This document shows, in pieces, positions 48,561-62,938 of a stretch of 64,000 nucleotides of DNA. The first letter of the stretch is position 1. Every line of letters starts with the position of its first letter. The position numbers were made by a program, and so were the translations under genes. A model generated the notes under the pieces. That model had not been told where the DNA came from. It saw nothing but the letters and a program-made list of their open reading frames with translations, and made no database searches. Origin of the DNA: an uncultured Alphaproteobacteria bacterium (lineage in GTDB: Bacteria > Pseudomonadota > Alphaproteobacteria > RF32 > CAG-239); the NCBI GenBank assembly GCA_949297415.1, contig CASFSV010000014.1, positions 71,030 to 135,029 on the forward strand, read 5' to 3'.

Positions 48561-50060
48561 CTAATGTTTATCTACATACTCAAATGTTTTTGTGCGTACA
48601 TTATATCGGCAATCATAGCTCTGATACTCGGGTTTTAAGATATACAAATCATCTCGATTTAGAGGTATATACATTTCTTCCAACAGATGACTACTTATCC
48701 AGTGTATGGGGTGAACACCAATCTCTCCACGGTACTCGCGGTATGTATCATAGTAATTTTTACCATAAATGATTTTCGGGCGATACTTTCTAATCAAACT
48801 TTCTAAATCTGAGGTCGGACGAATACCTATTGTCGCTGCAATAACATCTATTTGTCCCTTTAAATTCCAGATAAAATCAATATCTTTATTGAATAAATTG
48901 TACCCTATTCTATATCCGTTTACAACATAATCACACGGATTGGTTAGCCTTAATACAAATCCTGATGCACCATATTTATAATCATCGCCAACCGTGATGC
49001 GTTGTCTGTATATATTGGCATATATCCCGCCTAAAATGATAAAGTAGCTTAGAAATATATATAAAAACCATGACTTCTTTTTTATTATTTCTGCAACAGC
49101 AACTCCGGCCAATGTTGATGCTAACGCATGCAATAATGCAAAATAGTACACAAACGGCGTGAAGTAATACATGCGTATCAAATATTCCATAATAAAAATT
49201 ATCGCGAAAGTTTTGATGTATATGTTCCCCTCATAAACATTTTTTACCAATGCATATATCGCAAATAATATCGGCACCGTCATTTCTAAACTCGGATGAA
49301 TAAAACGTCTGGTGTAAAATACATCAGGAATATGGGAATTTAGCTCGAAGTTTGCTTTTATGTACATTGTTAATACATCTTCGTAGTATAAAAATGCTAA
49401 AAACACAACAAATATAAGTAGTGGAATACTACCACTTATGACACAATCTTCTATTTGTACCTTCTTTTCTCTTATCAGCCACAAAATGATGATACCTATC
49501 CCTATGACAATTAAGGCTGCTTTTTGGGTAAACATAAATGAAGCAAAAAACAGCATAAATGAGATAAATAAAGCTAGCACCCGTTTGTTACGCATATAGC
49601 AAAACAGATAATATATTCCGGCTATAATTGCTGTAGCCATAAAATTGTCCGGTTTAAAATCTTTATTATATAAACTCTCTTGCGGCAGCGCACAAAACGC
49701 TGCTGCAACTAATCCGCCAATCTTATTCGATAAAAAATCTTTATGCAGACGATACATATACCATAACATTAGAAGAAAAACAGTTACGGTCAATATATTA
49801 ACTGCATCTACCGCTCGTAGGCTATATTCATAATACCCAACTAATGGTGCTCCGATATACCATAATAATGGATTATGATGTTGAAAGAAATCTTTATACG
49901 GTAATTTTCCACTCCAGACTAACCATGATGTATGCACGTGCTCTAAAGTATCTCCATCTCCCGATCCACTATATATTACCGTCCAGTACAGCAGACCTCC
50001 GCAAAAGACTAAATATAATCCTAAAATTGCTTTTATTATGTTTTCCTTACTAAAAAGCAT
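48561..50060 (-). CDS. GT-C membrane glycosyltransferase, paralogue 2
   Basis: A 499-residue protein with about ten transmembrane helices. The first outer loop holds GDGDTLEHVHTSWLVWSG and DFFQHHNPLLWYIGAPL, the acidic and His-rich catalytic loop of PMT/ArnT-like GT-C enzymes. A C-terminal soluble domain of about 110 residues ends in PVHWISSHLLEE-like sequence (HPIHWISSHLL). It is clearly homologous to the upstream gene and overlaps it by 11 bases. It probably uses a polyprenyl-phosphate sugar. The acceptor is unknown. Confidence 0.8.
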   Translation of the reverse strand: MLFSKENIIKAILGLYLVFCGGLLYWTVIYSGSGDGDTLEHVHTSWLVWSGKLPYKDFFQHHNPLLWYIGAPLVGYYEYSLRAVDAVNILTVTVFLLMLWYMYRLHKDFLSNKIGGLVAAAFCALPQESLYNKDFKPDNFMATAIIAGIYYLFCYMRNKRVLALFISFMLFFASFMFTQKAALIVIGIGIIILWLIREKKVQIEDCVISGSIPLLIFVVFLAFLYYEDVLTMYIKANFELNSHIPDVFYTRRFIHPSLEMTVPILFAIYALVKNVYEGNIYIKTFAIIFIMEYLIRMYYFTPFVYYFALLHALASTLAGVAVAEIIKKKSWFLYIFLSYFIILGGIYANIYRQRITVGDDYKYGASGFVLRLTNPCDYVVNGYRIGYNLFNKDIDFIWNLKGQIDVIAATIGIRPTSDLESLIRKYRPKIIYGKNYYDTYREYRGEIGVHPIHWISSHLLEEMYIPLNRDDLYILKPEYQSYDCRYNVRTKTFEYVDKH

Positions 50061-51591
50061 TACGTATCGGTTCCTTATAAAAATATTCCCAAGTATCTTT
50101 TAGTGCATTATATTGGCAACGGCGTTTGGCTTGATATTCTGGTTTTAGAATAAATATATCTACAAAAGGCGATTGCATATAGTATTTATCTCTTAATGAA
50201 CTATCTACCCAGTGAACCGGAACTTCTATATGTTTTTGACGTAGTTTTTCATCCCAATAAGGCCCTGTATATATAATCCGAGGAAAATGTTTTATGACTA
50301 CTTGATTTAAATTCGGCAATGGAGCTAAACCTATTTTATTCCCTATTACATCCAGTTGTCCATTTAAATTCCAATAATATGTGATGTCTTTAGTAAAAAT
50401 GCCGTAAGTTAGTCCATAGCCATTTAATACTGAATCACAGCGATTGGTTTGTTCTATTACATATTTTGGAGTTACATATCTAAAATAGTTCGGTGGCAAT
50501 TTTTTTGCTGTACAATATGAGCAAAACGCATACATTCCCATCAGCGATAAAGCTACAAAAATATATGCTGTCCAGTTCCGTTGGTTAATTAATTTTCCAG
50601 CAAACGCACCAACCATTATGCCATTTAGTATTTGTAACTGATAATAGTAATGCCTATCCAACGAGAAATAAAAAAAACGTTGTACTGCCTCTGCTATCCA
50701 GAGTAAGCATATTATTTTAACGCTGGTATTTCCTTTGTACAAAAAGTACCCGCAAGATATAAAAGCTATTGCACTTACAACATAAAATTCGACTCTTGTT
50801 TTTTCAACCAAACCACCATATACATCAGGTATGTATAGATTGAAAATATAGTTTGCCAACCAGTATTGCTTAATCATATCATGGTATAGTAGCCATGACA
50901 GAAAGAGTATACATCCTATTAAAGGTAAAACCAGTGCTTTAATAAAATCTTTGATTTCTATATTTTTCGCGTACAGTTGATATATGACAACAGCACCTAC
51001 AAATGCTAACAGAAAAATAACTTTTTGCATAAACAGAAACGATATAAATAAGCCCCCAAACGAATATACTAAATCTTTGGTTTGCTTCTTTTCCAAATAT
51101 GACAACAGGTAATATATGCCTACCATAAAGGTAAATACCATATAGTTATCCGGGCGAAAGTCTTCTCCGCTAAATATAACATATGATGGGAAAATAGATG
51201 CTATACCGATTATGGCGGCATACCAACTTTGTGCCATAAAACGTTTTACAATCAAGCCACTTATCAATAGACTCCCAAACATCACCAGAGTGGAAATTAC
51301 GCGTACAACATCAAATAGAAATATGTCATAAGCCAAATATCCCGCTAATGGTGCAAATAGATACCACAATAAAGGATTATGATGTTGAAAAAAATCTATA
51401 TACGGAATCTGTCCGCCATACACCAACCAAGTAGAATGCATATGCTCTATGTCATCCCCTGTTTCTGGTTGATGATTATACAGAACCCAAAATGCCGCCC
51501 CTATACCGAATAAAATTTGTAATAGAAAATACACTTTCGGTAGTAACTTTGATACCGTATTAAGTGAATTTTCCTCAATCGGTTCAGACAT
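50050..51591 (-). CDS. GT-C membrane glycosyltransferase, paralogue 1
   Basis: A 513-residue protein with the same design as its downstream neighbour: one helix, then a loop with ETGDDIEHMHSTWLVYGG and DFFQHHNPLLWYLFAPL, about nine more helices and a soluble tail with VPVHWVDSSLRDKYY. The two copies share loops and tail motifs but differ in the helices, so the duplication is not recent. It lies 40 bases after a TPR gene on the same strand, making a TPR-GT-GT operon for surface glycosylation. Confidence 0.8.
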   Translation of the reverse strand: MSEPIEENSLNTVSKLLPKVYFLLQILFGIGAAFWVLYNHQPETGDDIEHMHSTWLVYGGQIPYIDFFQHHNPLLWYLFAPLAGYLAYDIFLFDVVRVISTLVMFGSLLISGLIVKRFMAQSWYAAIIGIASIFPSYVIFSGEDFRPDNYMVFTFMVGIYYLLSYLEKKQTKDLVYSFGGLFISFLFMQKVIFLLAFVGAVVIYQLYAKNIEIKDFIKALVLPLIGCILFLSWLLYHDMIKQYWLANYIFNLYIPDVYGGLVEKTRVEFYVVSAIAFISCGYFLYKGNTSVKIICLLWIAEAVQRFFYFSLDRHYYYQLQILNGIMVGAFAGKLINQRNWTAYIFVALSLMGMYAFCSYCTAKKLPPNYFRYVTPKYVIEQTNRCDSVLNGYGLTYGIFTKDITYYWNLNGQLDVIGNKIGLAPLPNLNQVVIKHFPRIIYTGPYWDEKLRQKHIEVPVHWVDSSLRDKYYMQSPFVDIFILKPEYQAKRRCQYNALKDTWEYFYKEPIRNAF

Positions 51592-51631: not shown

Positions 51632-52603
51632 TTAAGCTTCGTCTGATGACGTATCGCTACTTGATGGATTTTCTTCAGCAGGAATAACATCTGGCAACAT
51701 TCCTATTGCTTTTTTACGCTTCAATTTATTTACAAATTTAATTGAGCGTTGAGCATCCCACTTCTTTTTTCCTTCTTCACGTTGGAAAATATGCTTATAT
51801 ATCTCTATTGCTTGATCAAATTCAGATAATTTCGTTAAGCATGACGCTAGTCCATCATAAAGTTTATGATGATAACGGCCGTCTACCAAATTTTTAGCTT
51901 TATTATAGCACTTTAGCGCATCTTTGAACTTAAACATCTTTTGATACACAAAACCAATACTTATCCATGCTTGGATTTCTGTGCTATCTATATTCAATAT
52001 TTTGGTAAAACATTTTAAAGCCGAATCGTTATCTCCCATCAACTGATAGGTTACTCCAATACCGTTCCATGCTTTTACATTTGATTTATCTAATGCTAAA
52101 ACTTTCTTAAAATACCCGATTGCACGTTCATATTGTTTCAATTTCTGTAGGGTTACCGCAATACTTAACAATGTTTGCGGATGTTTCGGGTCTATCTGAT
52201 AAGCTTGTTGTAAAACATCCAGAGCTTCCTTAAACAAGAACATATGTTGCAAAGCGATTGCTTTACCATTTAAAGCTTCCAAAGAGGTTGGATCGTTTGC
52301 ATAAGCTTCTTCAAAGCAAGTTATTGCCTCTTTGTAACGACCGCGCATACTTAATGTTACGCCTTTATTGTTAAGCACTTCTACGGATTTCGGATTGATT
52401 GCTAAGGCCTTATCGAAACAGTCTACCGCTTCTGTATATTTACTCATCTTTTGATAAGCAAAACCCTTTGAATTTATTGCTTTCCATGAATCGGGCTGTT
52501 GGGCTAAAAACTCATCAAACTGAGCTATTGCCTCTCTACACATTCCTGAATCTAAAAGTTCCTGACCTCTCTTGTAGGCATTATTGTCACTTAACTTAAC
52601 CAT
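51632..52603 (-). CDS. TPR-repeat protein
   Basis: A 323-residue soluble protein made of about eight tetratricopeptide repeats (for example AINSKGFAYQKMSKYTEAVD and AWNGIGVTYQLMGDNDSALK), ending in a basic stretch and an acidic Ser-rich tail (SSSDTSSDEA). TPR solenoids bind partner proteins. OGT-like glycosyltransferases also begin with such repeats, but no catalytic domain is attached. As the first gene of the GT-C operon it could scaffold or regulate those enzymes. No signal peptide is seen. Confidence 0.88.
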   Translation of the reverse strand: MVKLSDNNAYKRGQELLDSGMCREAIAQFDEFLAQQPDSWKAINSKGFAYQKMSKYTEAVDCFDKALAINPKSVEVLNNKGVTLSMRGRYKEAITCFEEAYANDPTSLEALNGKAIALQHMFLFKEALDVLQQAYQIDPKHPQTLLSIAVTLQKLKQYERAIGYFKKVLALDKSNVKAWNGIGVTYQLMGDNDSALKCFTKILNIDSTEIQAWISIGFVYQKMFKFKDALKCYNKAKNLVDGRYHHKLYDGLASCLTKLSEFDQAIEIYKHIFQREEGKKKWDAQRSIKFVNKLKRKKAIGMLPDVIPAEENPSSSDTSSDEA

Positions 52604-52753
52604 ATTCTTTCTCTACATAGTTTTACAAAATAATTCATTGCGCATTATATGGTTACTTTTTTTCTTTTGTCAAGACAAAAAATACAGATTTTGTTTTTTA
52701 CTGCCCTTTTTTCCTCTTTTTATTTGTTAAAATTTAGTTCTCCTACTTTATTG

Positions 52754-52833
52754 TTGACAAAAAAAGTTTTTGACTATATGTTGGATTTCACTATAATTAA
52801 TCTTATGTTTCATTATTAAATTTTTTTATCATT
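52754..52833 (+). promoter_or_regulatory. Family promoter-leader, copy 1
   Basis: TTGACA at 52754-52759; a weak -10 TATATG near 52775 (an alternative TTGACT-16-TATAAT pair is at 52770-52797). The TTATGTTTCATTATTAA box starts at 52803, followed by a T-rich tract and ATCATT to the ATG at 52834. There is no Shine-Dalgarno sequence. TTGACA to ATG is 80 bases; box to ATG is 31. Confidence 0.65.
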
Positions 52834-54666
52834 ATGGAAAAAACAAATGTGGGTAAACTTTCTTTTTGGAAGAAATTTACATTGTTGCGGCAATTGATTG
52901 AAGATCCTTCTTCTATTCCTCCTTATTATCAAGCTGCTTTGCTGAATGCTGTTTCTACGAAAACTTTTCGAAAATATTATTCGGAATTTTGTAGATTCAA
53001 TCCCGAAACTTTTGATGTTCTTTTAGAGCCTCGCAACCATGGGAAGTTTTCTGTTTGTAAACATCGTGAATTTTATCCCTTTGAGCTTGCAAATGAATTT
53101 GCTCAAAAGGGAACTGATGAACAGGTGCTTGATGTGTTGGAAGAACATTGCTCTTCGTTAGGACATATCCTGCTTGAACGTCATTCTGAACTATTTGAAA
53201 GATATGTTCGGCGGCATGGCTCTATCCCTCTTAATTTATGGAAGGAAATCATTAAACAAAAACGCGAAGATTTAGTTTTAATGTTTCTTAAATTTAGAGA
53301 CCAAGATTATGTCTTATCTGCACAGTATATTGATGTGCTTTTTGATTCTTCCTTGGAGAAAGGAATTAAAACTTATTTGGAACAAAATTCCGTTTTTGAA
53401 TTGTCCAAAGTACGCTTATATATCTTGAAATCAGGCGATGTTGCTCTTTGCAAGAAAATGCTTGAAAATAATCCTTTAATTTTTGAGGATGAATTTCTTG
53501 AGCTTTTTAAACTTAATCAACCCGAACTTATCTTGACTCTCGTTAAACGGATGATACAAGATGAATTCGCCGATGATTATACTGAAATTCCTGCAGGCTT
53601 TGAAAATTCTCTGATACACAGTAATGCTACTGAAGCAATTATGCTCTATATGCAAAAAAATGAACTTGATTACGGTGCTACTATTTGCCTCTTTGAAACC
53701 GGAAATGAGGAACTTATTCGGTTCTATTTGGAATCAGATCGCTTTAAAGAGTGTAAAAAATTTCCAGTTGATGTGGCGGCTATGTTTCTTTTTTCCGGAA
53801 ATAATGCCAGTCTGCAATGTTGCTACAAAAGTAAATTCGGTCTGCCTTATCAGTTGGAACGTAAGTTGATACTTTCTGAAAATGATAAACTCAATGCTTT
53901 TTTCAAAGATAAATATGCAACCTATATGCAAGATAACCTCATTAATTATATCGATACTAATGAGCTATATCCTTTGAACGCTGCACTGTTAATGGAAAAA
54001 GGTCCTATTGACGATGCTATTGATTATTTTCAAAAGTATCCGTTACCGGATATTGCTGTTGTTGCTCTGTTTAAAAACGGAAAAGACAATTTGCGGAAGG
54101 CGTACCTTAACTTCCTACTTGAAAACCATGCTATCGTTTGTGAAGCTGCGGAAAAGTATTTTGTTAAATTTGCTCCTCAAAAGAAATTGATGACTTATTT
54201 GCAAAATAATGCTCAATCTCCTCTTAAAAGTGTGGATGGTGAAATTGCTTTGTTAAAGCGAGAGGATGCTGAGTTGTGCCATTTTTATGTTGAAAAATTT
54301 GGTTTTAAAACTCAAGCGCTTGTTTCTTTTATTCAATGCGGTTCGGTTGATTTTATCAAATCTATTTTCAAAAATTATCTGCTGCCAGACGAAGTTTTAA
54401 GCGCCTTGATTGACAGCGGTAGAAACTCTTTGATGATTAAATTCTTCAAAGAATCTGACTTGGATAAAGAACTAGAACTCAAACTAATCCATTCCGATTT
54501 TTCTAAAAACGAAAGGGCCGTTTGTTTCTATCTGGATAAGTATGATTTGTTTGCTGATAATGAAGTTGAGTTAATTAAACTCAACAACAACAAAATGATT
54601 GATATATATTTGGCGAAACATTCTCTCTCTCAAAAGGCAGAAGAACTATACGCCTCTATGTATTAA
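52834..54666 (+). CDS. Helical-repeat family protein, member 1
   Basis: A 610-residue cytoplasmic-type protein with no signal or membrane helix. After an N-terminal module (Trp12, then IPPYYQAALLNAVS) it consists of two-helix repeats of roughly 26-28 residues with the pattern E..L[IL]......[LM]I..Y[LI]....L....; NEVELIKLNNNKMIDIYLAK near the end is a clear unit. I see no known domain (not TPR, ankyrin, Sel1 or HEAT by length). It is the longest of five paralogues in tandem and has its own promoter-leader and terminator. A solenoid for protein binding is inferred. Confidence 0.75.
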   Translation: MEKTNVGKLSFWKKFTLLRQLIEDPSSIPPYYQAALLNAVSTKTFRKYYSEFCRFNPETFDVLLEPRNHGKFSVCKHREFYPFELANEFAQKGTDEQVLDVLEEHCSSLGHILLERHSELFERYVRRHGSIPLNLWKEIIKQKREDLVLMFLKFRDQDYVLSAQYIDVLFDSSLEKGIKTYLEQNSVFELSKVRLYILKSGDVALCKKMLENNPLIFEDEFLELFKLNQPELILTLVKRMIQDEFADDYTEIPAGFENSLIHSNATEAIMLYMQKNELDYGATICLFETGNEELIRFYLESDRFKECKKFPVDVAAMFLFSGNNASLQCCYKSKFGLPYQLERKLILSENDKLNAFFKDKYATYMQDNLINYIDTNELYPLNAALLMEKGPIDDAIDYFQKYPLPDIAVVALFKNGKDNLRKAYLNFLLENHAIVCEAAEKYFVKFAPQKKLMTYLQNNAQSPLKSVDGEIALLKREDAELCHFYVEKFGFKTQALVSFIQCGSVDFIKSIFKNYLLPDEVLSALIDSGRNSLMIKFFKESDLDKELELKLIHSDFSKNERAVCFYLDKYDLFADNEVELIKLNNNKMIDIYLAKHSLSQKAEELYASMY

Positions 54667-54679
54667 TTTTTTTTACCAG

Positions 54680-54712
54680 AACTGCTTCCGATTTTTCGGA
54701 AGCAGTTTTTTT
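54680..54712 (+). terminator. Terminator of repeat-family member 1
   Basis: AACTGCTTCCGA/TCGGAAGCAGTT stem (54680-54691 and 54696-54707) with a T-run that leads directly into the next promoter. Confidence 0.88.
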
Positions 54713-54713
54713 G

Positions 54714-54791
54714 TTGACTCAAATGTTTTTTGGTTTACGATTTACCTAAATTATTAATTTTATGTCTTACTATTAATTTTTTTTATTTATT
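54714..54791 (+). promoter_or_regulatory. Family promoter-leader, copy 2
   Basis: TTGACT (54714-54719), 16 bases, TACGAT (54736-54741). The box TTATGTCTTACTATTAA starts at 54760, then a T-rich tract to the ATG at 54792 (32 bases). There is no Shine-Dalgarno sequence. Confidence 0.65.
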
Positions 54792-56567
54792 ATGCGTACC
54801 AATCAATTAAAAACACCTTCTCTCTTAGAAACTTGGAGACAGGTCTTGCTTTTTCTGATTTTTCACAAGGAAATTGCTCCTCAATATCATTCTCAAGTGG
54901 TTTTGCTTCACGGTTGTTCAAAGAAATCTCTTTTTCTGTATGTGAAACATTTTCCGCTAACTGATGAAGCTTTAATGCTCTTGTTTCAAAAAGCTGACAA
55001 AGGCTTTCTTCAAAATTTTTTATCTCATTATTTCTGGGATTTTCCACAAAATGGCGAACCAATTCTTTTTGACAGATTTGGACTCGATTTTCTGATAGAT
55101 AATTCAAAATGGACGTTATCTACAAAAACTGAGTTGACTTTACTGCAACTAGAAAATGCTGAGCTGATTGGAAAATACACTAATCAATGTACTTTTACTC
55201 CTGAGGCTGAGTTAGAATTTTTCAAGAAATCTTTTCCAGACTTGCAAAAAGCTTATGCCGAAAAAAATGATTTATGTGATAAGACAGAAAAATTTTTACT
55301 TGAAACGAAAAACTTTGATTTGCTCTCCACTCATCTTGTTAAATTTGGTTTGAAGGATGATGTGGTTGAAACTTTTTATCGTGATGCTCCTGATGATTTG
55401 GTTTTGACATACTTAAGTGAATTTGCCGGCTATCCTTCCGATAAAGAGTTTAAAACTCTTTTATCCAGATCCGTTACAGATTTTATCAAACAAATTGTCT
55501 TAAGATTTGATGATCTAATTCATCGTCATTTAAGGATGTTGTTAAAATCTAAATATGCTAATTTAGTGGGTGCATATTTAGAACAAAAAGCTGAACAAAA
55601 ATCTCCCCTATCCGATATGGTGTGGAGTAGTTTGTTTAATGTTCCAGAATTTCGGTGTTACCTCAAATTTGCATTAGACCATTTTGATTTGCCTGAAGAA
55701 TTTGAGGTCCGCTTATTTAAAACACAACTTTTGGATTTATTGGAATACTATACTCAAAATCATGCTTTTCAAAATTGGGGGTTTCCGATGTTGCTTGCTT
55801 TAGGTAAACGAGATCTTTTGTTGAACTATTTGACTTTTCATCAACTTTCTTGGAGTGATGAGTGCTTGTTAATTGAGCAAAATGACAAGGAACTAATTGA
55901 TTGTTATCTTAAGAAACATTCTTTTAGTTCGTATGCTCAAGCAATTAGAATAAAAACTGCGGGTTTTTCAAATGCTCTGGCTATCGTCAAAGCGCTTGAT
56001 AAGTTTGATGACTTTATTCTTGATGCTTTATTTTATCATAATGAAGAAGAATTCTGGGAAGTTTATCTCTCTCATTGTAACTACCAATTTAGAGAGGATT
56101 TGTTAATTAAATTTTGTAAACGTGCCAGTGTTGTTGTTATTATCAACTACCTTTCTTACTATTTAATTGACGGAAAACTTTCTTTAAAACTAGGTAACGA
56201 CAAATTGGAAAATGATCTCTATCTAACGTTGTACAAACGACAAGATGAAAGGATTACAACCTTTTTGTTACAACACTCATCTCTTACATCTATTCATGAT
56301 TGTTGGTTTATTCGTTATGCTTCTTATGATTTTATCAAGCAATTCTTAGAGAATTTGTTTAATGAGAATATTGAGCTTTCGATTCAAGCTGAAAAAGAAT
56401 TAATTTGCAGAGAATATAAAGATTTATTACGTCTTTATTTTTCTCATTATTCTTTATATCAAGAAAATCTTGTTTGCTTGGCGCATTTACTTTCTCCGGA
56501 ACTTATGAGAGATTATCTCTTAAGCCATAGAGAAGACAAAGATTTAATTCAAAAACTGTTATCTTAA
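54792..56567 (+). CDS. Helical-repeat family protein, member 2
   Basis: A 591-residue paralogue. The N-terminal module is best seen here: ETWRQVLLFLIFHKEIAPQYHSQ broken by Val-Val, then LLHGCSKKSLFLYV. About twenty short helical repeats follow, for example TELTLLQLENAELIGKYTNQ. A segment FEVRLFKTQLLDLLEYY aligns with FEVRLLECGNKDLIDLY of member 3, showing common descent. It is rich in Phe, Leu, Glu and Lys and has no catalytic motif that I can see. An antisense frame over the first 100 codons is a shadow. Confidence 0.75.
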   Translation: MRTNQLKTPSLLETWRQVLLFLIFHKEIAPQYHSQVVLLHGCSKKSLFLYVKHFPLTDEALMLLFQKADKGFLQNFLSHYFWDFPQNGEPILFDRFGLDFLIDNSKWTLSTKTELTLLQLENAELIGKYTNQCTFTPEAELEFFKKSFPDLQKAYAEKNDLCDKTEKFLLETKNFDLLSTHLVKFGLKDDVVETFYRDAPDDLVLTYLSEFAGYPSDKEFKTLLSRSVTDFIKQIVLRFDDLIHRHLRMLLKSKYANLVGAYLEQKAEQKSPLSDMVWSSLFNVPEFRCYLKFALDHFDLPEEFEVRLFKTQLLDLLEYYTQNHAFQNWGFPMLLALGKRDLLLNYLTFHQLSWSDECLLIEQNDKELIDCYLKKHSFSSYAQAIRIKTAGFSNALAIVKALDKFDDFILDALFYHNEEEFWEVYLSHCNYQFREDLLIKFCKRASVVVIINYLSYYLIDGKLSLKLGNDKLENDLYLTLYKRQDERITTFLLQHSSLTSIHDCWFIRYASYDFIKQFLENLFNENIELSIQAEKELICREYKDLLRLYFSHYSLYQENLVCLAHLLSPELMRDYLLSHREDKDLIQKLLS

Positions 56568-56576
56568 CCGTTTTAC

Positions 56577-56608
56577 AGCCTTTCCTTCGTCAAGGGAAGG
56601 CTTTTTTA
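56577..56608 (+). terminator. Terminator of repeat-family member 2
   Basis: AGCCTTTCCTT/AAGGGAAGGCT stem (56577-56587 and 56592-56602, one G-U pair) with a T-run. Confidence 0.85.
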
Positions 56609-56621
56609 TTTCTCTAAATTA

Positions 56622-56699
56622 TTGACAAAAAACTTTTTTGAATTTAGTTTGGAAAATCTATTAGTAATTTTATGTTTCACTATTAATTTTTTTATCATT
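56622..56699 (+). promoter_or_regulatory. Family promoter-leader, copy 3
   Basis: TTGACA (56622-56627) with a weak -10 (TTAGTT, 56644-56649). The box TTATGTTTCACTATTAA starts at 56670 and the ATG is at 56700 (30 bases). The last 30 bases are nearly identical to copy 1, ending TTTATCATTATGGAAAAA. There is no Shine-Dalgarno sequence. Confidence 0.65.
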
Positions 56700-58478
56700 A
56701 TGGAAAAAGAAGTAAAAAGATCTTCCGTTTGGGCTACCCGACTAGAAGTATGGAAATTTTTGCAAATGTATCACAGAAATCACTATTACGAAATTGATCC
56801 CAAACATCATTTGAACATGATGGAACTGAGAGGTTGTTCTAAAGATGCTTTAGCTAAATATTTAGAATGTAATCATTCAATTTCCGAGGATGTTATTCTG
56901 TTTTTATTGAAAAATAAAAATACGGAGATGCTTCAATTCTGGGCTGAACATGCAAAAAATGTTTCTCTGTCTCCGGAAACCGAGAAAGCTGTTGTTGCAA
57001 AATTCGGATTTGATGTATTGCTTAAAAACAATATTCATCTGTCTGAGAAATCTACATTAAAATTTTTACAGGGAAGAACCTTATCGCATCTTCCTGCATC
57101 GTATTTGCGTTGTTTGACATTTTCACCCGACACAGAAGAAACTCTGCTTAAGTTGAAAAATCCAGAACTTACTTGTTCCTATCTTTGTGATAACTTAGTT
57201 AATAACTGCAATCAACATCTCATTCTTCTTTATGATGATCCTGATGTGTATAAAGCTTTTGCTCGGCATAATTCCTTTGAAAATATCTTAGAGGATATTA
57301 TCAAGACAAAATCTTTGGAAATTTCCAAAATTGCTTTGCTGAATACACCATCTCTACCTTCAGAAATTGAGAAAATTTTAATTGATGCTAACAATTTAAC
57401 TCTGTTAGAGTTTTGTGTTGATCATATTAAATTTTCTGACGAAGTTGTTGATTATTTAGCGCAACATGCATCTGATGATTTTTTCGAAACTTATGTCAAA
57501 CATGAAGATTTCTCTTGCATTGGCTGTCGTGACAGCATTTATCAAAGACTTTTTGAGCCTCGTAATCTAGAACTTCTTAAAGAACATTTACAGGAATACT
57601 GTATTCCTGGTAAATTTGAAGTTCGTTTGCTTGAATGCGGCAACAAAGATTTAATTGATCTTTATTTTAAAGATAATTTTGAACTTTCTTCAGAAGCAAA
57701 AGCTTGGCTTATGGAACACCAACAATCTGAACATGCTGCCAAATTACTTGAGCACGTTGATGATTTGGGTTATTTGGGAGAAGTCGCCTTATTTAAATCT
57801 GGTGATGATGTAAAAATTAAACATTACATTGCTTCACATTCTCTTAATATTATCTCTGAGACCGCTTTGTTTAGATTTGCATCTGCGCAGGTGTTAAGAG
57901 AGCACTTAAATTCGTGGGTTCCTGGCTGCTTAGCTCAAATAGCTTTAATTAAGAGGCATGATTTTGAGCTTCTAAAATCTCTTTGGACTGATGACTTTGA
58001 GTTTGATGATGCCCCTTTGAGAATTTTCTTAAACGAAGCTGATGATGATACAATCTTGACGTATCTTCAGTATCTGGCCGCTAATTATGAAGATTGTTCT
58101 CTTGGTTCTGATACCGACGAGGCCGAAAATCCTTTGCCTTTAAGCGAAATTTTGCATCAAAGACACTTGGATAAATCCGCAATGTTCTTTGTTTCAAACA
58201 CTTCTCTTACAGAGGCTGATGAATGTGCTTTGGCTGTTTACGGTTCAAAAGAAGTTATTCTATCTTATCTTAAAGAACATGATTTGTGTTCGGAAGCTGA
58301 AAAATTATTGCTTTGTCGCGGAGATATTGATCTTGTTCGGCTATATATTTCTGAGAGAGAACTTTATAGCGACAATGAACAATATCTGTTTGTTTTTGAT
58401 GATTGGGATTTGATAAACTTCTATCAGGAGAAACATGGCTTTTCAGACTGTGATATTACTGAAGCTATGGATAATTAA
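56700..58478 (+). CDS. Helical-repeat family protein, member 3
   Basis: A 592-residue paralogue. The start at 56700 is set by the family leader and by the shared MEK/MEE N-terminus; the frame is open to 56622, but that would begin inside the promoter. The N-terminal module shows Trp18 and LRGCSKDALAKYL. Repeats are regular at the C-terminus: AEKLLLCRGDIDLVRLYISE then EQYLFVFDDWDLINFYQEKH, 27 residues apart. An acidic Ser/Asp/Glu insert (LGSDTDEAENP) breaks the array near residue 475. Function is unknown. Confidence 0.75.
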   Translation: MEKEVKRSSVWATRLEVWKFLQMYHRNHYYEIDPKHHLNMMELRGCSKDALAKYLECNHSISEDVILFLLKNKNTEMLQFWAEHAKNVSLSPETEKAVVAKFGFDVLLKNNIHLSEKSTLKFLQGRTLSHLPASYLRCLTFSPDTEETLLKLKNPELTCSYLCDNLVNNCNQHLILLYDDPDVYKAFARHNSFENILEDIIKTKSLEISKIALLNTPSLPSEIEKILIDANNLTLLEFCVDHIKFSDEVVDYLAQHASDDFFETYVKHEDFSCIGCRDSIYQRLFEPRNLELLKEHLQEYCIPGKFEVRLLECGNKDLIDLYFKDNFELSSEAKAWLMEHQQSEHAAKLLEHVDDLGYLGEVALFKSGDDVKIKHYIASHSLNIISETALFRFASAQVLREHLNSWVPGCLAQIALIKRHDFELLKSLWTDDFEFDDAPLRIFLNEADDDTILTYLQYLAANYEDCSLGSDTDEAENPLPLSEILHQRHLDKSAMFFVSNTSLTEADECALAVYGSKEVILSYLKEHDLCSEAEKLLLCRGDIDLVRLYISERELYSDNEQYLFVFDDWDLINFYQEKHGFSDCDITEAMDN

Positions 58479-58490
58479 ACTTCTTTTTTT

Positions 58491-58524
58491 AAGACTCCTC
58501 CTTTATCGGAAGGAGTCTTTTTTA
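58491..58524 (+). terminator. Terminator of repeat-family member 3
   Basis: AAGACTCCT/AGGAGTCTT stem (58491-58499 and 58511-58519) with a T-run abutting the next TTGACA. Confidence 0.85.
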
Positions 58525-58601
58525 TTGACAATCTCCCTTTTTGTCCCTACTCTTTTGCTCAATTAAATAATTTTATGTTTCATTATTAAAATTTTATATT
58601 T
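58525..58601 (+). promoter_or_regulatory. Family promoter-leader, copy 4
   Basis: TTGACA (58525-58530), 17 bases, TACTCT (58548-58553). The box TTATGTTTCATTATTAA starts at 58573 and the ATG is at 58602 (29 bases). There is no Shine-Dalgarno sequence. Confidence 0.65.
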
Positions 58602-59522
58602 ATGGAAGAAAAAGTTTGTCCCGATAGGACGCTGTTATTGAAAAAAGCCAAATGGGCTATTCGCAAATCTTATTGGCTCAATAGTTCGCTACCTGTTGAG
58701 TATCATTCTATTTTGATAAATCAAGAATGCTGTTCGGAATATTGTATGCGTATTTGCTTACAAAATTGTTCTTTATCCTCAGAAACTGAGGTACTTCTTT
58801 TTGATAAATATGAAGCTGATAAACCTGATATTCTTAAAGAATATATTAGTAAACATGGTGCTTCTGATGATTTACTTATTAAAATTATTGAGTGTAAAAA
58901 TCTTGAATTACTTAAATGCTTTATTGATTTAAGAATATCTCTATACTTTCGCAGTGATAGTATTTTACCGCAAAAAGTTCAGCAAGAACTTATTAAATCT
59001 AATGATTCTATTTTTTTTAAAAAAGTTCTTCATTTTGGTGTGTTGCTCAATTTTTCTGTTATTCTTGATTTACTTCAGCTTGGTAATTATGATATGATAG
59101 AGGTTTATTGCCAGTCTGGTTTCAAAAATAAAACAGGATCTTATTTATATGATACTTGGTTTTCGATGCTTGCACAACGTGATGACATAAAAAGTCTCAC
59201 TTTGATTTGCTACTACTTTAAACTGCCTTGTTCTGCTTTATTGAAATTGCTGGAAATGAAGCATTGTGATTTTGTTATGGAGTATTTTAAAACTCAAACT
59301 ATTGATGAAAAAGTACAGTACCATATCATACAGAGTCAGAATAAGAAACTTATTGCTCTTTATATCAGTGCTAAACCTTTTGTGAAAAAAGCTCAGATTG
59401 AATTGGTTAAGTCCGGTTTTAAAGATTTGCTTAAAATGCATTATCTTAAGTATGGTTTGGACGATGAAGCGGTTGTTTTTCAAGCCAGCCTTAATAACGT
59501 TAAGGCATATCTTGGCGTTTGA
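58602..59522 (+). CDS. Helical-repeat family protein, member 4
   Basis: A 306-residue, half-length paralogue. The N-terminal module is retained (MEEKVCPDR, Trp18, LPVEYHSILINQECCSEYC), followed by about nine helical repeats such as HIIQSQNKKLIALYISAKPF and IELVKSGFKDLLKMHYLKYG. It ends cleanly with a stop and terminator, so it is a short member rather than a truncated pseudogene. No signal peptide or catalytic motif is seen. Confidence 0.72.
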   Translation: MEEKVCPDRTLLLKKAKWAIRKSYWLNSSLPVEYHSILINQECCSEYCMRICLQNCSLSSETEVLLFDKYEADKPDILKEYISKHGASDDLLIKIIECKNLELLKCFIDLRISLYFRSDSILPQKVQQELIKSNDSIFFKKVLHFGVLLNFSVILDLLQLGNYDMIEVYCQSGFKNKTGSYLYDTWFSMLAQRDDIKSLTLICYYFKLPCSALLKLLEMKHCDFVMEYFKTQTIDEKVQYHIIQSQNKKLIALYISAKPFVKKAQIELVKSGFKDLLKMHYLKYGLDDEAVVFQASLNNVKAYLGV

Positions 59523-59537
59523 TATTTTATTACTTCT

Positions 59538-59566
59538 AAAGCCCCGATTTCTCGGGGCTTTTTTAC
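59538..59566 (+). terminator. Terminator of repeat-family member 4
   Basis: AAAGCCCCGA/TCGGGGCTTT stem (59538-59547 and 59552-59561) with a T-run. Confidence 0.88.
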
Positions 59567-60030
59567 TTAGCTATTTGTAACAGCGATGGCGTTAGTACAT
59601 AGCATCCTGATAAAACGTGATTATTTTGCTCAGCAAGAATATCTCCTTCTATATCATAGATACTATTTATGTTTTTCCTATATCCAAAAGGAGAATTCCC
59701 TGTATTGCGGATATTATCTAAAAACCAGTATAGCTCTAAAGAGACATGACCGCCGTAAATCTCTGATAACATCTTTGCTATTTGCTTACTTCCATGAAAA
59801 GCATATTTTCTTTTTCCTGAAGCAGTTGGATATTCAACCAAGACTTGTATTTCTTCTGGGTTAATTTTCGCAGCATCTTTTGCTCCTGCAATATATGCTG
59901 CTGCTCCTCCGTATTCGCAGCTCCCAGTATAGTGAAAATAGAAAATATTGTTTTTCTTTGATTTTAAACTTACCTGCATATTCTTTTCTATGTAGGAAAG
60001 AAACTTTTTTTCTTGTTCTAGGGTTATCAT
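59563..60030 (-). CDS. Hypothetical protein inside the repeat-family cluster
   Basis: A 155-residue soluble protein, unrelated to its neighbours and on the opposite strand. It shows a mixed alpha/beta pattern: IFYFHYTGSCEYGGAAAYIAG broken by Ala-Lys, EEIQVLVEYPTASGKRKYAF, and GHVSLELYWFLDNIRNTGNS. No known family. TTGACA (near 60104, leftward) stands 73 bases before the ATG, and there is no ribosome-binding sequence, as for the family. The TTATGT box is missing. Confidence 0.55.
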   Translation of the reverse strand: MITLEQEKKFLSYIEKNMQVSLKSKKNNIFYFHYTGSCEYGGAAAYIAGAKDAAKINPEEIQVLVEYPTASGKRKYAFHGSKQIAKMLSEIYGGHVSLELYWFLDNIRNTGNSPFGYRKNINSIYDIEGDILAEQNNHVLSGCYVLTPSLLQIAK

Positions 60031-60112
60031 ATGCGTATGTTTTTAATTGTTATAATAATTTTTTTACTGTTTTAAATTTTATATTCTTTCTATTTTTTGT
60101 CAATAACCTTTC

Positions 60113-60188
60113 TTGACAAATTCATTGTCCTCTTTATAATACGAGCATCAATTTAATTTTATGTCGTACTATTTTATTTTTTATAATT
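60113..60188 (+). promoter_or_regulatory. Family promoter-leader, copy 5
   Basis: The best promoter of the set: TTGACA (60113-60118), 16 bases, TATAAT (60135-60140). The box TTATGTCGTACTATTTTA starts at 60159 and the ATG is at 60189 (30 bases). There is no Shine-Dalgarno sequence. Confidence 0.7.
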
Positions 60189-60797
60189 ATGAAAGCTATT
60201 GAAATTTGGAACAATTTTCTTGCTGATAAGCAGCAGTTGTCTGATGATGACGAACTTATTTTTGTTCGTGAGGGCTTAGATGAATGGCTCTTAAAATATC
60301 TACAAGAGTTTTCCTTTGGCGAAAAAGCTGAACTGCTACTTATCAAATCTCGTTCTTTCCCTGTCGTTCTCGACTATATCTACTTTTCTGATGAGCCTTT
60401 TTTTATTCAATCCGAAAAAGCTCTGCTGGAACGAAAGGATACTGAACTTATTTTGAAGTATGCACATAAATTCTGTTTCGTACAGGAACTTCATCCCTTT
60501 ATGGTTGAAAACTCTAGCGATGATGTATTACTTGGGTATTTTCTTGAGGAAGAACTGTCGTCAGACGGAGAAATAAAACTTATTGAGCGATATTCTGAAA
60601 AACTTTTCAAAGCTTATGTTGAAGAATATGTTTTAACCGAAAATGCCGAACATTTTTTGATTGAGCAGAAAAAGTATGACTTTTTCAGAATCTATGTTTC
60701 CGAACATAATCGCATCGCTCAATCTTCTTTAACTTTACTGGCTAATTCTCATGATGAAAAAATGCTCGATATTTTTCGGGAATTTTGTTTGTGTTAG
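60189..60797 (+). CDS. Helical-repeat family protein, member 5
   Basis: The shortest member (202 residues), it lacks most of the N-terminal module and is almost pure repeats. Seven units of 26-28 residues can be laid out, beginning at DELIFVREG, ELLLIKSRS, EKALLERKD, HPFMVENSS, EIKLIERYS, EHFLIEQKK and SLTLLANSH. Each carries an aromatic Y or F about 16-17 residues in (LKYLQEF, LKYAHKF, KAYVEEY, RIYVSEH). This gives the clearest view of the repeat. It has its own terminator. Confidence 0.72.
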   Translation: MKAIEIWNNFLADKQQLSDDDELIFVREGLDEWLLKYLQEFSFGEKAELLLIKSRSFPVVLDYIYFSDEPFFIQSEKALLERKDTELILKYAHKFCFVQELHPFMVENSSDDVLLGYFLEEELSSDGEIKLIERYSEKLFKAYVEEYVLTENAEHFLIEQKKYDFFRIYVSEHNRIAQSSLTLLANSHDEKMLDIFREFCLC

Positions 60798-60851: not shown

Positions 60852-62237
60852 TTAAAATTCGGCTATAGCTTTTCCGCTTCGCCAATTCTGTTCTATCTGC
60901 TCTAACGACCGACCTTTAGTTTCTGGAATGTATTTCCATGTATAGAATAAACTGAAAATTCCGACTACTCCGAAAATACTAAAGGTTAATGCTTCGCCGA
61001 TTGTAGAAAGCAATGTCGGAAAGATTAAAGCAACAATAAAGTTAAATACAAAATTGGACATTGTTGCTATACTCATTGCCGTTCCTCTTATTGCCAACGG
61101 CATAATTTCTGAGATTAGTATCCATGCAATCGGACCTAATGAAAAAGCGAAACTAGCTATAAATGTGATAATACTACCTACGGCTATCCATTTGGTATCA
61201 TAGCCATAATTGCTGCTTAACCAGAAAGATATGGACAAAACAAATAAACTTACCGTAATACCGCTTAATCCTGCGTATAATAATGGTTTACGTCCTAATC
61301 TGTCTGTAAAAAATATAGCAACAAATGTCATTGCGAAATTAACAACACCTACTCCGACAGAGGCATATAGGGCGCCGATGTTATCTGTAAAACCTGCCGC
61401 TTTGAATATTGTTGCCGCATAGTAAATAATTGTATTAATTCCCGTACAAATCTGAATAAACATTATAAAAATTCCAACCAATACCGGTCGTAACATCCAT
61501 TGTTCAAACACTTTTCCTTGTTTCTTTTCACTACTTTTTAGGGTTGCTTGAATTTCTTTGACTTGTTTATCCGCATCTTCTTCCGGTTCGATTTTTTTGA
61601 AAATTTCTTTGGCTTCATTATAGCGGCGACGGCTTATCAACCAACGTGGCGTATCTCCGAGAAAACTAATACCTACAAGTAAAATAACTGCCGGTATCAA
61701 TCCTGCTCCCAGCATCCAACGCCAATTATATTCCGATAAGGCAAATATTCTGTTGATTAGATAGGAGAACAAAATTCCAGCCGTAATTGCTAATTGGTAC
61801 AAGGAAACCAACATTCCTCTTACCTTCTGAGGCGATAACTCCGATAAATATAAAGGAATAACAAAATTTACCATACCAATCGCCAAACCCAATATCATAC
61901 GACCGAACACTAACCATCCTACACTCGGGGCGAATCCGCAAATTAAAGATCCTATTGCGAAAATTGTTGCCGTGGCGATAATCACTTTTTTTCGACCATA
62001 AACATCTGCCAATACACCATTTACCGCAGCTCCAACAACGGCACCGACTAATGCGGAACTTACTACCCAACCTTGTTGCAATGTGCTTAGTGGCCAACTT
62101 TCGTTAATGTAGAGTAATGCGCCTGAAATTACGCCCGTATCAAATCCGGAAAGTAATCCTCCTAATGAGGCTATTCCTGCAATCACATATAATAAAAAGT
62201 GCTTTATACGTCCTTTGTTTTGAATTGTTGTATTCAT
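60852..62237 (-). CDS. MFS sugar:proton symporter (XylE/AraE/GalP type)
   Basis: A 461-residue inner-membrane transporter with twelve helices. Sugar-porter signatures are GGLLSGFDTGVISGAL, the loop DVYGRKKV after helix 2, PLYLSELSPQKVRGMLVSL, PRWLISRRRYNEA before the central loop, the second DRLGRKPLL and the C-terminal PETKGRSLEQIE. It probably imports a pentose or hexose with protons; the exact sugar cannot be told. It is a single gene, with no catabolic genes adjacent. It is divergent from the phosphatase-like gene. Confidence 0.93.
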   Translation of the reverse strand: MNTTIQNKGRIKHFLLYVIAGIASLGGLLSGFDTGVISGALLYINESWPLSTLQQGWVVSSALVGAVVGAAVNGVLADVYGRKKVIIATATIFAIGSLICGFAPSVGWLVFGRMILGLAIGMVNFVIPLYLSELSPQKVRGMLVSLYQLAITAGILFSYLINRIFALSEYNWRWMLGAGLIPAVILLVGISFLGDTPRWLISRRRYNEAKEIFKKIEPEEDADKQVKEIQATLKSSEKKQGKVFEQWMLRPVLVGIFIMFIQICTGINTIIYYAATIFKAAGFTDNIGALYASVGVGVVNFAMTFVAIFFTDRLGRKPLLYAGLSGITVSLFVLSISFWLSSNYGYDTKWIAVGSIITFIASFAFSLGPIAWILISEIMPLAIRGTAMSIATMSNFVFNFIVALIFPTLLSTIGEALTFSIFGVVGIFSLFYTWKYIPETKGRSLEQIEQNWRSGKAIAEF

Positions 62238-62380: not shown

Positions 62381-62938
62381 ATGAAACGATTAATTATTTT
62401 TAGGCATGGTAGTTATGACGAACACAAAAATTTAATTGAGACTTGTGCTCAAGATCTTTTTCGAAAAGCTCGTCACATACAAGAATTTGTCGGTCATCCC
62501 GCCGCTATTTTTGCTTCACCTATCAAAAGAGCATGGCAAACCGCTAATGTTCTTAATCTTGCGTTCGGCAATGTTCCTCTGTTTGCAAAAGACGAATTAC
62601 GAGATTTTAGCGCTCTCAGCATTCCTTATTTTGCCAAAAGATTTGCGGTTGAAGCACAACAAAATTTTGCCGATAAAGATGTGCTTGCTTGGGTTACACA
62701 CGAACCTTCCGTACACGAATTAGTCGGTATTACACTGGATACGTCTGAATGGATTGTGCTTGAAGCGCCTAAGTGGGAGATGATTTTTGAACCAAAGTTC
62801 AGAAAAATCTATCGTTCGATAAACTTTCTTACCGCACAAGGTTATTCAGCTAACGAAGCTTTCCACAAATTGGTGGAATGGACGATGGATGAACTTTCTG
62901 ATGAAGAAGCACAAAAAATCAGTTCTCTTCTGAAATGA
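62381..62938 (+). CDS. Histidine phosphatase superfamily protein (SixA-like)
   Basis: A 185-residue protein beginning KRLIIFRHGSYDE, the RHG catalytic motif of the histidine phosphatases, with FASPIKRAWQTANVL and VTHEPSVHEL supplying the second Arg and His. The C-terminal 50 residues are an extra helical region. The substrate, a phosphoprotein or small phosphoester, is unknown. A TTGACA-17-TACTTT promoter lies at 62321-62349. No ribosome-binding sequence precedes the ATG. The frame is open to 62339 inside the promoter. Confidence 0.78.
   Translation: MKRLIIFRHGSYDEHKNLIETCAQDLFRKARHIQEFVGHPAAIFASPIKRAWQTANVLNLAFGNVPLFAKDELRDFSALSIPYFAKRFAVEAQQNFADKDVLAWVTHEPSVHELVGITLDTSEWIVLEAPKWEMIFEPKFRKIYRSINFLTAQGYSANEAFHKLVEWTMDELSDEEAQKISSLLK

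Follow-up and report, generated by a model that had tools for sequence, protein, structure and literature searches.

Does an array of proteins built from an unfamiliar short helical repeat represent a diverged form of a known solenoid or a family in its own right, and what could such proteins do for the bacterium that encodes them? This question is raised by five paralogous genes, here denoted A to E, that are located within a 64,000-nucleotide stretch of DNA (hereinafter the window) from an uncultured alphaproteobacterium of the RF32; CAG-239 lineage (assembly GCA_949297415.1, contig CASFSV010000014.1, positions 71,030 to 135,029), the source being a metagenome-assembled genome of 1.56 Mb. 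Our analysis suggests, with a probability of roughly 60%, that the A-E proteins represent a new alpha-solenoid family, restricted to one lineage and with a two-helix unit of 26 residues, and are putative, diversifying binding scaffolds. All five reading frames of the original prediction, which was made from the sequence alone, are open, start with ATG and carry the repeat:

52834..54666, + strand: gene A, 610 amino acids (aa), ATG start, roughly 16 units (26 residues each); near-identical to the allele of congener L051/L072
54792..56567, + strand: gene B, 591 aa, ATG start, about 16 units; missing in congeners L051 and L052
56700..58478, + strand: gene C, 592 aa, ATG start, about 15 units and an N-terminal cap
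58602..59522, + strand: gene D, 306 aa, ATG start, about 9 degenerate units
60189..60797, + strand: gene E, 202 aa, ATG start, 7 units

For gene C, an in-frame TTG at position 56622 is an alternative start that would yield a protein of 618 aa.

A repeat unit of 26 residues

The hydropathy autocorrelation peaks at 26 residues in C (0.197, with a 95% bound of 0.121 for shuffled sequences) and in E (0.281; bound 0.22); in the remaining proteins the signal is borderline, namely at 26 residues in A (0.116; bound 0.119) and at the length of two units in B (53 residues, 0.13; bound 0.125) and D (52 residues, 0.169; bound 0.173). A hidden Markov model (HMM) of the unit, seeded with E and its clean paralog F (L010:7244-7846), detected 62 matches in the family set vs 5 per shuffled set, and extension to the relatives brought the number of unit matches to 528, from which the consensus LSEEAELLLLEKGSDDLIKAYLEKYG was derived. 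Across all members in the relatives, successive units are spaced by 26 residues in 210 cases, by 27 in 43 and by 28 in 28. These values span the 26-28 residues initially proposed, with 26 as the main spacing, but the period itself is 26 residues, interrupted by occasional insertions of 1-5 residues. Alignment of whole arrays with MAFFT loses the register, and ungapped three-unit blocks were used in its place; the units mapped in register number 16 in A, 16 in B, 15 in C, 9 in D and 7 in E.

The solenoid is preceded by an N-terminal module that consists of a Trp helix, a P-x-x-Y-H or K-H-H motif and a CS[KE] turn. The motif and the turn had been attributed to the first four proteins, and the module is readily recognised in B, C and D; in A, the Trp and P-x-Y are present but the GCSK turn is missing (the sequence reads AVSTKTF). 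Many paralogs have at the N-terminus one or two copies of the module G[YF]PF.[VL]Y.[DN]G.CGK (L011:6513-7649; L012:4758-7242; L057-L059; L203), which also occurs on some paralogs that almost lack the 26-residue units and has no Pfam match.

Tandem repetition at the DNA level is no longer visible in A-E of the window. In the congeners L057 and L059, Tandem Repeats Finder (TRF) detects tandem DNA repeats with periods of 78, 156 and 234-237 bp and, because the 78-bp repeats persist in these relatives, the unit of duplication appears to be a single helix pair. These arrays, along with gene counts that differ between species, agree with the earlier notion of an expanding family.

Searches of Pfam, NCBIfam and PHROGs yielded no credible family for the repeat members; the weak matches (MtrH, BibA_N, FrsA etc.) were partial, below the cut-off or without a supporting stretch, and were discarded. 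A sequence profile search of the PDB returned short, chance-level matches only, such as one to subunit k of ATP synthase (E 0.012). The TPR, PPR and Sel1 models of Pfam match neither A-E nor other members in the same scan that identifies a TPR protein next to the array with E=1.8e-51, the HEAT, ARM and HEAT_PBS models show no match at E<=1, and the LRV models show no match; in the profile-profile comparison, TPR was assigned a probability of 0.09%. Comparison of the unit HMM with consensus arrays of known repeats (ANK, TPR, PPR, Sel1, HEAT_PBS, LRV and ARM) gave no notable score. Searches of phages, plasmids and viral contigs with single members found no relatives, Rfam gave no match, and nothing relevant was found in the literature on this lineage or on a repeat of this type. 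By sequence, this is probably a new repeat family, as far as the comparisons with Pfam, NCBIfam, PHROGs and PDB reach; against these libraries the repeat is as unfamiliar as it first appeared.

Predicted structure

The AlphaFold2 models, for which the input comprised own and ortholog sequences only, are all-helical for both E and C, in line with the two-helix solenoid initially proposed. The best model of E, with a mean predicted local distance difference test (pLDDT) score of 92.8 and a predicted template modelling (pTM) score of 0.84, contains 15 helices and no strands, arranged as a first helix followed by seven two-helix units. The five models of C agree in confidence (mean pLDDT 81.9-85.1, best 85.1); the protein is predicted to be helical along its entire length, without strands and with a long first helix. 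Both predicted structures consist of repeated antiparallel helix pairs wound into a superhelix, and DSSP assigns helices only, hence no beta-hairpin loop between the pairs. The fold class of A-E is very likely that of an alpha-solenoid.

Foldseek searches with the E and C models found no match at E<=0.001 in the PDB or among viral models. The solenoids of the HEAT/ARM, TPR, PPR, PUF and Sel1 types resemble A-E in being all-helical, with two or three helices per unit, and several of them receive middling structural scores; in contrast to A-E, they have longer units, of approximately 30-42 residues, and give no sequence-profile match. The LRV repeat shares with A-E the short unit, its structure (1lrv) aligns with part of C (Z 6.8), and the best match to E in the viral library is annotated as LRV (E 3.1e-3). 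The LRV unit, however, is 24 residues long and pairs an alpha-helix with a 3-10-helix, whereas in A-E the spacing is 26, both elements are predicted alpha-helices, and no LRV model matches.

Distribution of the family

Profile searches of this and other genomes, as had been suggested, covered the order (153 genomes) and a draw from the phylum (398 genomes). Within the order, the repeat was detected in 74 of the 153 genomes and in 11 of the 17 genera, all from one family; in the phylum-wide draw, the source genome alone matches (0/397 of the others). In the source genome itself, the three-unit profile matches 34 times (E<=0.01), with hits on nine contigs other than that of the window. Thus, the tandem family of five described originally holds as far as the five genes are concerned, but it is not the whole of the family in this genome, nor is the tandem uninterrupted, given that a 155-aa gene on the opposite strand lies between D and E. 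Two genomes of another genus (L136 and L137) carry arrays of at least seven repeat genes. Inside the array of L137, a gene with the identical leader type (L137:5537-6118, - strand) stands alone and encodes domains 2 and 3 of EF-Tu (Pfam E 6e-19 and 1.2e-12) but no GTPase domain.

A fixed site with rapidly changing genes

The array occupies an identical site in five congeneric species, between two conserved anchors:

51632..52603, - strand: left anchor, TPR protein (Pfam TPR, E=1.8e-51; 91-98% identity among congeners)
59563..60030, - strand: gene of 155 aa that lies between D and E, without a match to a known family and with a leader of the A-E kind
60852..62237, - strand: right anchor, sugar-transporter-like protein (labelled by sequence reading; 95-98% identity among congeners)

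In the more distant congeners L053, L054 and L056, the left neighbour is shared and is accompanied by two repeat genes, the comparable ones being 23-25% identical. Among the close congeners, the identity of A-D to the window ranges from 52 to 91%, the swapped A allele (see below) excepted. The rate of protein-changing (non-synonymous) substitution, dN, is 0.013-0.033 for the two anchors; in A-D it reaches 0.05-0.37 (A in L051/L072 excepted), mostly three- to twenty-fold the rate of the anchors. The ratio of dN to the synonymous rate (dS) is 0.15-0.33 for A-D and 0.04-0.11 for E, compared with 0.01-0.02 for the anchors; it is below 1 throughout, and A-E are under net purifying selection.

The A protein is 98% identical to that of L051/L072 with a dS of 0.04, whereas the two genes to the left of A have dS values of 0.83 and 2.15. 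Compared with L072, a tract that is 97-100% identical extends over approximately positions 52650-54450, with flanks that are mostly 81-93% identical; shorter near-identical tracts link A with L069 (97-99%) and B with L068 (98-99%). The best reading of such tracts is that species have recently exchanged alleles through recombination.

When the sequences are compared in register across species, positions 6, 9, 10, 17, 18, 21 and 22 of the unit are conserved, and positions 3, 4, 7, 15, 16, 19, 20, 23, 24 and 26 are variable; the former would form the buried core and the latter the surface. Substitutions avoid positions 9, 21, 18, 10, 22, 6 and 17 and cluster at the variable ones, as would be expected if the core stays fixed while the surface changes.

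No 26-residue repeat was seen in the 155-aa gene. Its position between D and E is kept in congeners, it evolves fast (dN/dS 0.12-0.15), and a homolog with 51% identity is located beside the array in L053. To the left of the TPR protein, the window (48561-51591, - strand) encodes, side by side, a pair of paralogous membrane proteins (499 and 513 aa) that are glycosyltransferase-like by eye.

A common leader without a Shine-Dalgarno sequence

Each of the five genes looks like a transcription unit of its own, judging from the following elements:

52801..52833, + strand: leader of A, AU-only, without Shine-Dalgarno
54678..54709, + strand: intrinsic terminator after A, immediately ahead of the B promoter
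54758..54791, + strand: leader of B, same motif as A
56577..56602, + strand: intrinsic terminator after B
56668..56699, + strand: leader of C, same motif as A
58498..58515, + strand: terminator-like hairpin after C
58571..58601, + strand: leader of D, same motif as A
59538..59561, + strand: intrinsic terminator after D
60113..60140, + strand: sigma-70-like promoter of E, TTGACA-16-TATAAT
60157..60188, + strand: leader of E, same motif as A

In A-D, TTGAC(A/T) boxes are found at the matching place of the aligned upstream regions. The aligned leader reads AATTTTATTATTAAC-n4-AAAAnTTTATTATT-ATGGAA, and its 16-nucleotide core has 25 exact matches in 18 genomes of the genus; 20 of these lie ahead of a repeat gene, at a distance of 28-32 nucleotides in 19 cases. 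A Shine-Dalgarno sequence is missing from the 18 nucleotides ahead of the start in 80 of the 81 genes of the repeat family vs 76 of the 225 other genes (Fisher p 2.6e-28, a value that is too small given that related genes were counted separately), as well as in 2 of 11 ankyrin genes. The difference persists when only genes with an upstream gap of their own are considered (79/80 repeat genes vs 69/165 others).

A search of the source genome with the leader profile returns genes with the repeat or the repeat module alongside other genes, with most matches ending at the start codon, so that the repeat family shares the leader with other genes. On this sequence evidence, the leader acts across the genome as an alternative start signal, one on which the repeat family relies almost without exception. 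Among the other genes that follow the leader (AATTTTATTATTAAC-n4-AAAAnTTTATTATT-ATG) are some that resemble, by eye, those of an adenylyltransferase (L180), an aspartate/glutamate racemase (L189) and a lipoprotein (L206). A small upstream open reading frame within the leaders of A and D (ATG TTT CAT TAT TAA) was considered and dropped, its stop codon not being kept in orthologs.

Possible functions and alternative explanations

Given the predicted architecture and the absence of any enzyme domain, A-E probably serve as binding scaffolds rather than as enzymes. Their repertoire would have been enlarged through duplication of units, duplication of genes and exchange of alleles, and the likeliest cause of the turnover in these small-genome gut bacteria would be interaction with changing partners, whether competing microbes or the cells of a host or protist. 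The turnover, along with the exchange of alleles and the genomic context, allows the tentative proposal that A-E target the cells of a host, a protist or a rival, and a putative host-interaction role is plausible. With regard to the genome context, ankyrin matches were found in all 15 genomes of the genus tested, and VirB4 in 14 of 17. The source genome (L129; C16:28000-47000) contains VirB4 (E 1.1e-10) together with two VirB2/TrbC-like pilin genes, near TcpQ and secretin genes, and the combination of ankyrin expansion with type IV genes makes delivery of proteins to other cells possible. One genome of the genus (G010, 1.7 Mb) shows an extreme expansion, with 154 ankyrin matches. The most far-reaching version of the proposal, under which A-E would be secreted effectors of a 26-residue alpha-solenoid class among those with the shortest two-helix units, constituting a large recombining repertoire directed against a host or protist, controlled as a regulon through the leader devoid of Shine-Dalgarno, and arisen in one family of gut Alphaproteobacteria, is speculative and unlikely to be correct in full.

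The alternative that survives best, even if rather unlikely, is that A-E act inside the cell, as scaffolds or regulators of processes of the bacterium itself and with no other organism as their target, and evolve fast since solenoid surfaces tolerate change. The absence of an apparent export signal, the lack of matches to surface or enzyme domains in A-E, the conservation of E and F across several species, dN/dS values below 1 everywhere, and the occurrence of the same leader class ahead of ordinary-looking genes are all compatible with such a role, but the copy number is highly variable and about half of the genomes of the order have no match, which would be odd for housekeeping proteins; moreover, alleles of the array cross species, whereas its left neighbours do not.

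The reading of A-E as diversifying binding scaffolds also has to face several observations that weigh against it. High confidence was attained by one of the five AlphaFold2 models of E, the other four having mean pLDDT values of 50-66. The E protein is fairly conserved (79-84% identity to the window) and slower than A-D; dS is saturated in several of the comparisons; the neighbouring gene at 62381-62938 has a dN/dS of 0.07-0.11, which overlaps the range of E; and dN/dS well below 1 combined with fast evolution can fit weak constraint too. As for delivery, VirB4 was not found in two array-carrying genomes of the genus (G003 and G012), and the type IV genes may instead serve conjugation.

The possibility that A-E are ankyrin repeats that have lost the beta-hairpin loop (33 - 7 = 26 residues) is tempting by eye. 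As in the models of E and C, the ankyrin unit (Ank_2, PF12796) places two short helices in a solenoid, its helix-turn-helix part reads alike (G13, E/D16, V/L17, I/V18, K19), and ankyrins are numerous in the very same genomes and expanded in the genus. Ankyrin repeats are known to be expanded in host-associated bacteria, several of them being effectors, e.g., in Legionella and Rickettsia (PMC11514114). Ankyrin-type chains also top the lists of a second structural aligner for both models (Z 9.7 for E, with HACE1; Z 10.2 for C, with a DARPin), but ARM, PUF and TOG chains follow closely (Z 7-9 for the ARM and TOG rows), and such values, according to the aligner's own guidance, possibly reflect a mere common arrangement and fall below its informative level for repeats. 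The 33-residue unit of ankyrin, its TPLHLAA motif and its beta-hairpin strands set it apart from the 26-residue unit of A-E, which lacks the motif and, in the models of E and C, shows no strands. At E<=1, the ankyrin models of Pfam match none of the members scanned, the profile-profile comparison with ankyrin triples from these genomes gave a probability of 0.59%, no better than the column-shuffled controls (up to 0.83%), and ankyrin genes mostly retain the Shine-Dalgarno leaders that the repeat genes lack. Ankyrin ancestry was rejected on the profile test and appears highly improbable. An equally improbable alternative is an anti-phage defence or immunity array diversified in an arms race with phages or rival toxins, which the tandem paralogs, fixed site and allele exchange resemble but for which PADLOC gives no credible match in A-E, no effector or nuclease domain and no recognised toxin-like neighbour were found, and no phage record or viral contig contains a relative of the members searched.

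Implications

The compact, regular 26-residue repeat, which matches none of the libraries searched, would lengthen the short list of natural alpha-solenoids by one family and might be used as a scaffold in binder design. The common leader provides a handle for finding the rest of the repertoire without recourse to protein sequence similarity. The combination of a fixed site, a variable surface and cross-species allele exchange suggests an interaction arms race in these poorly known gut bacteria.

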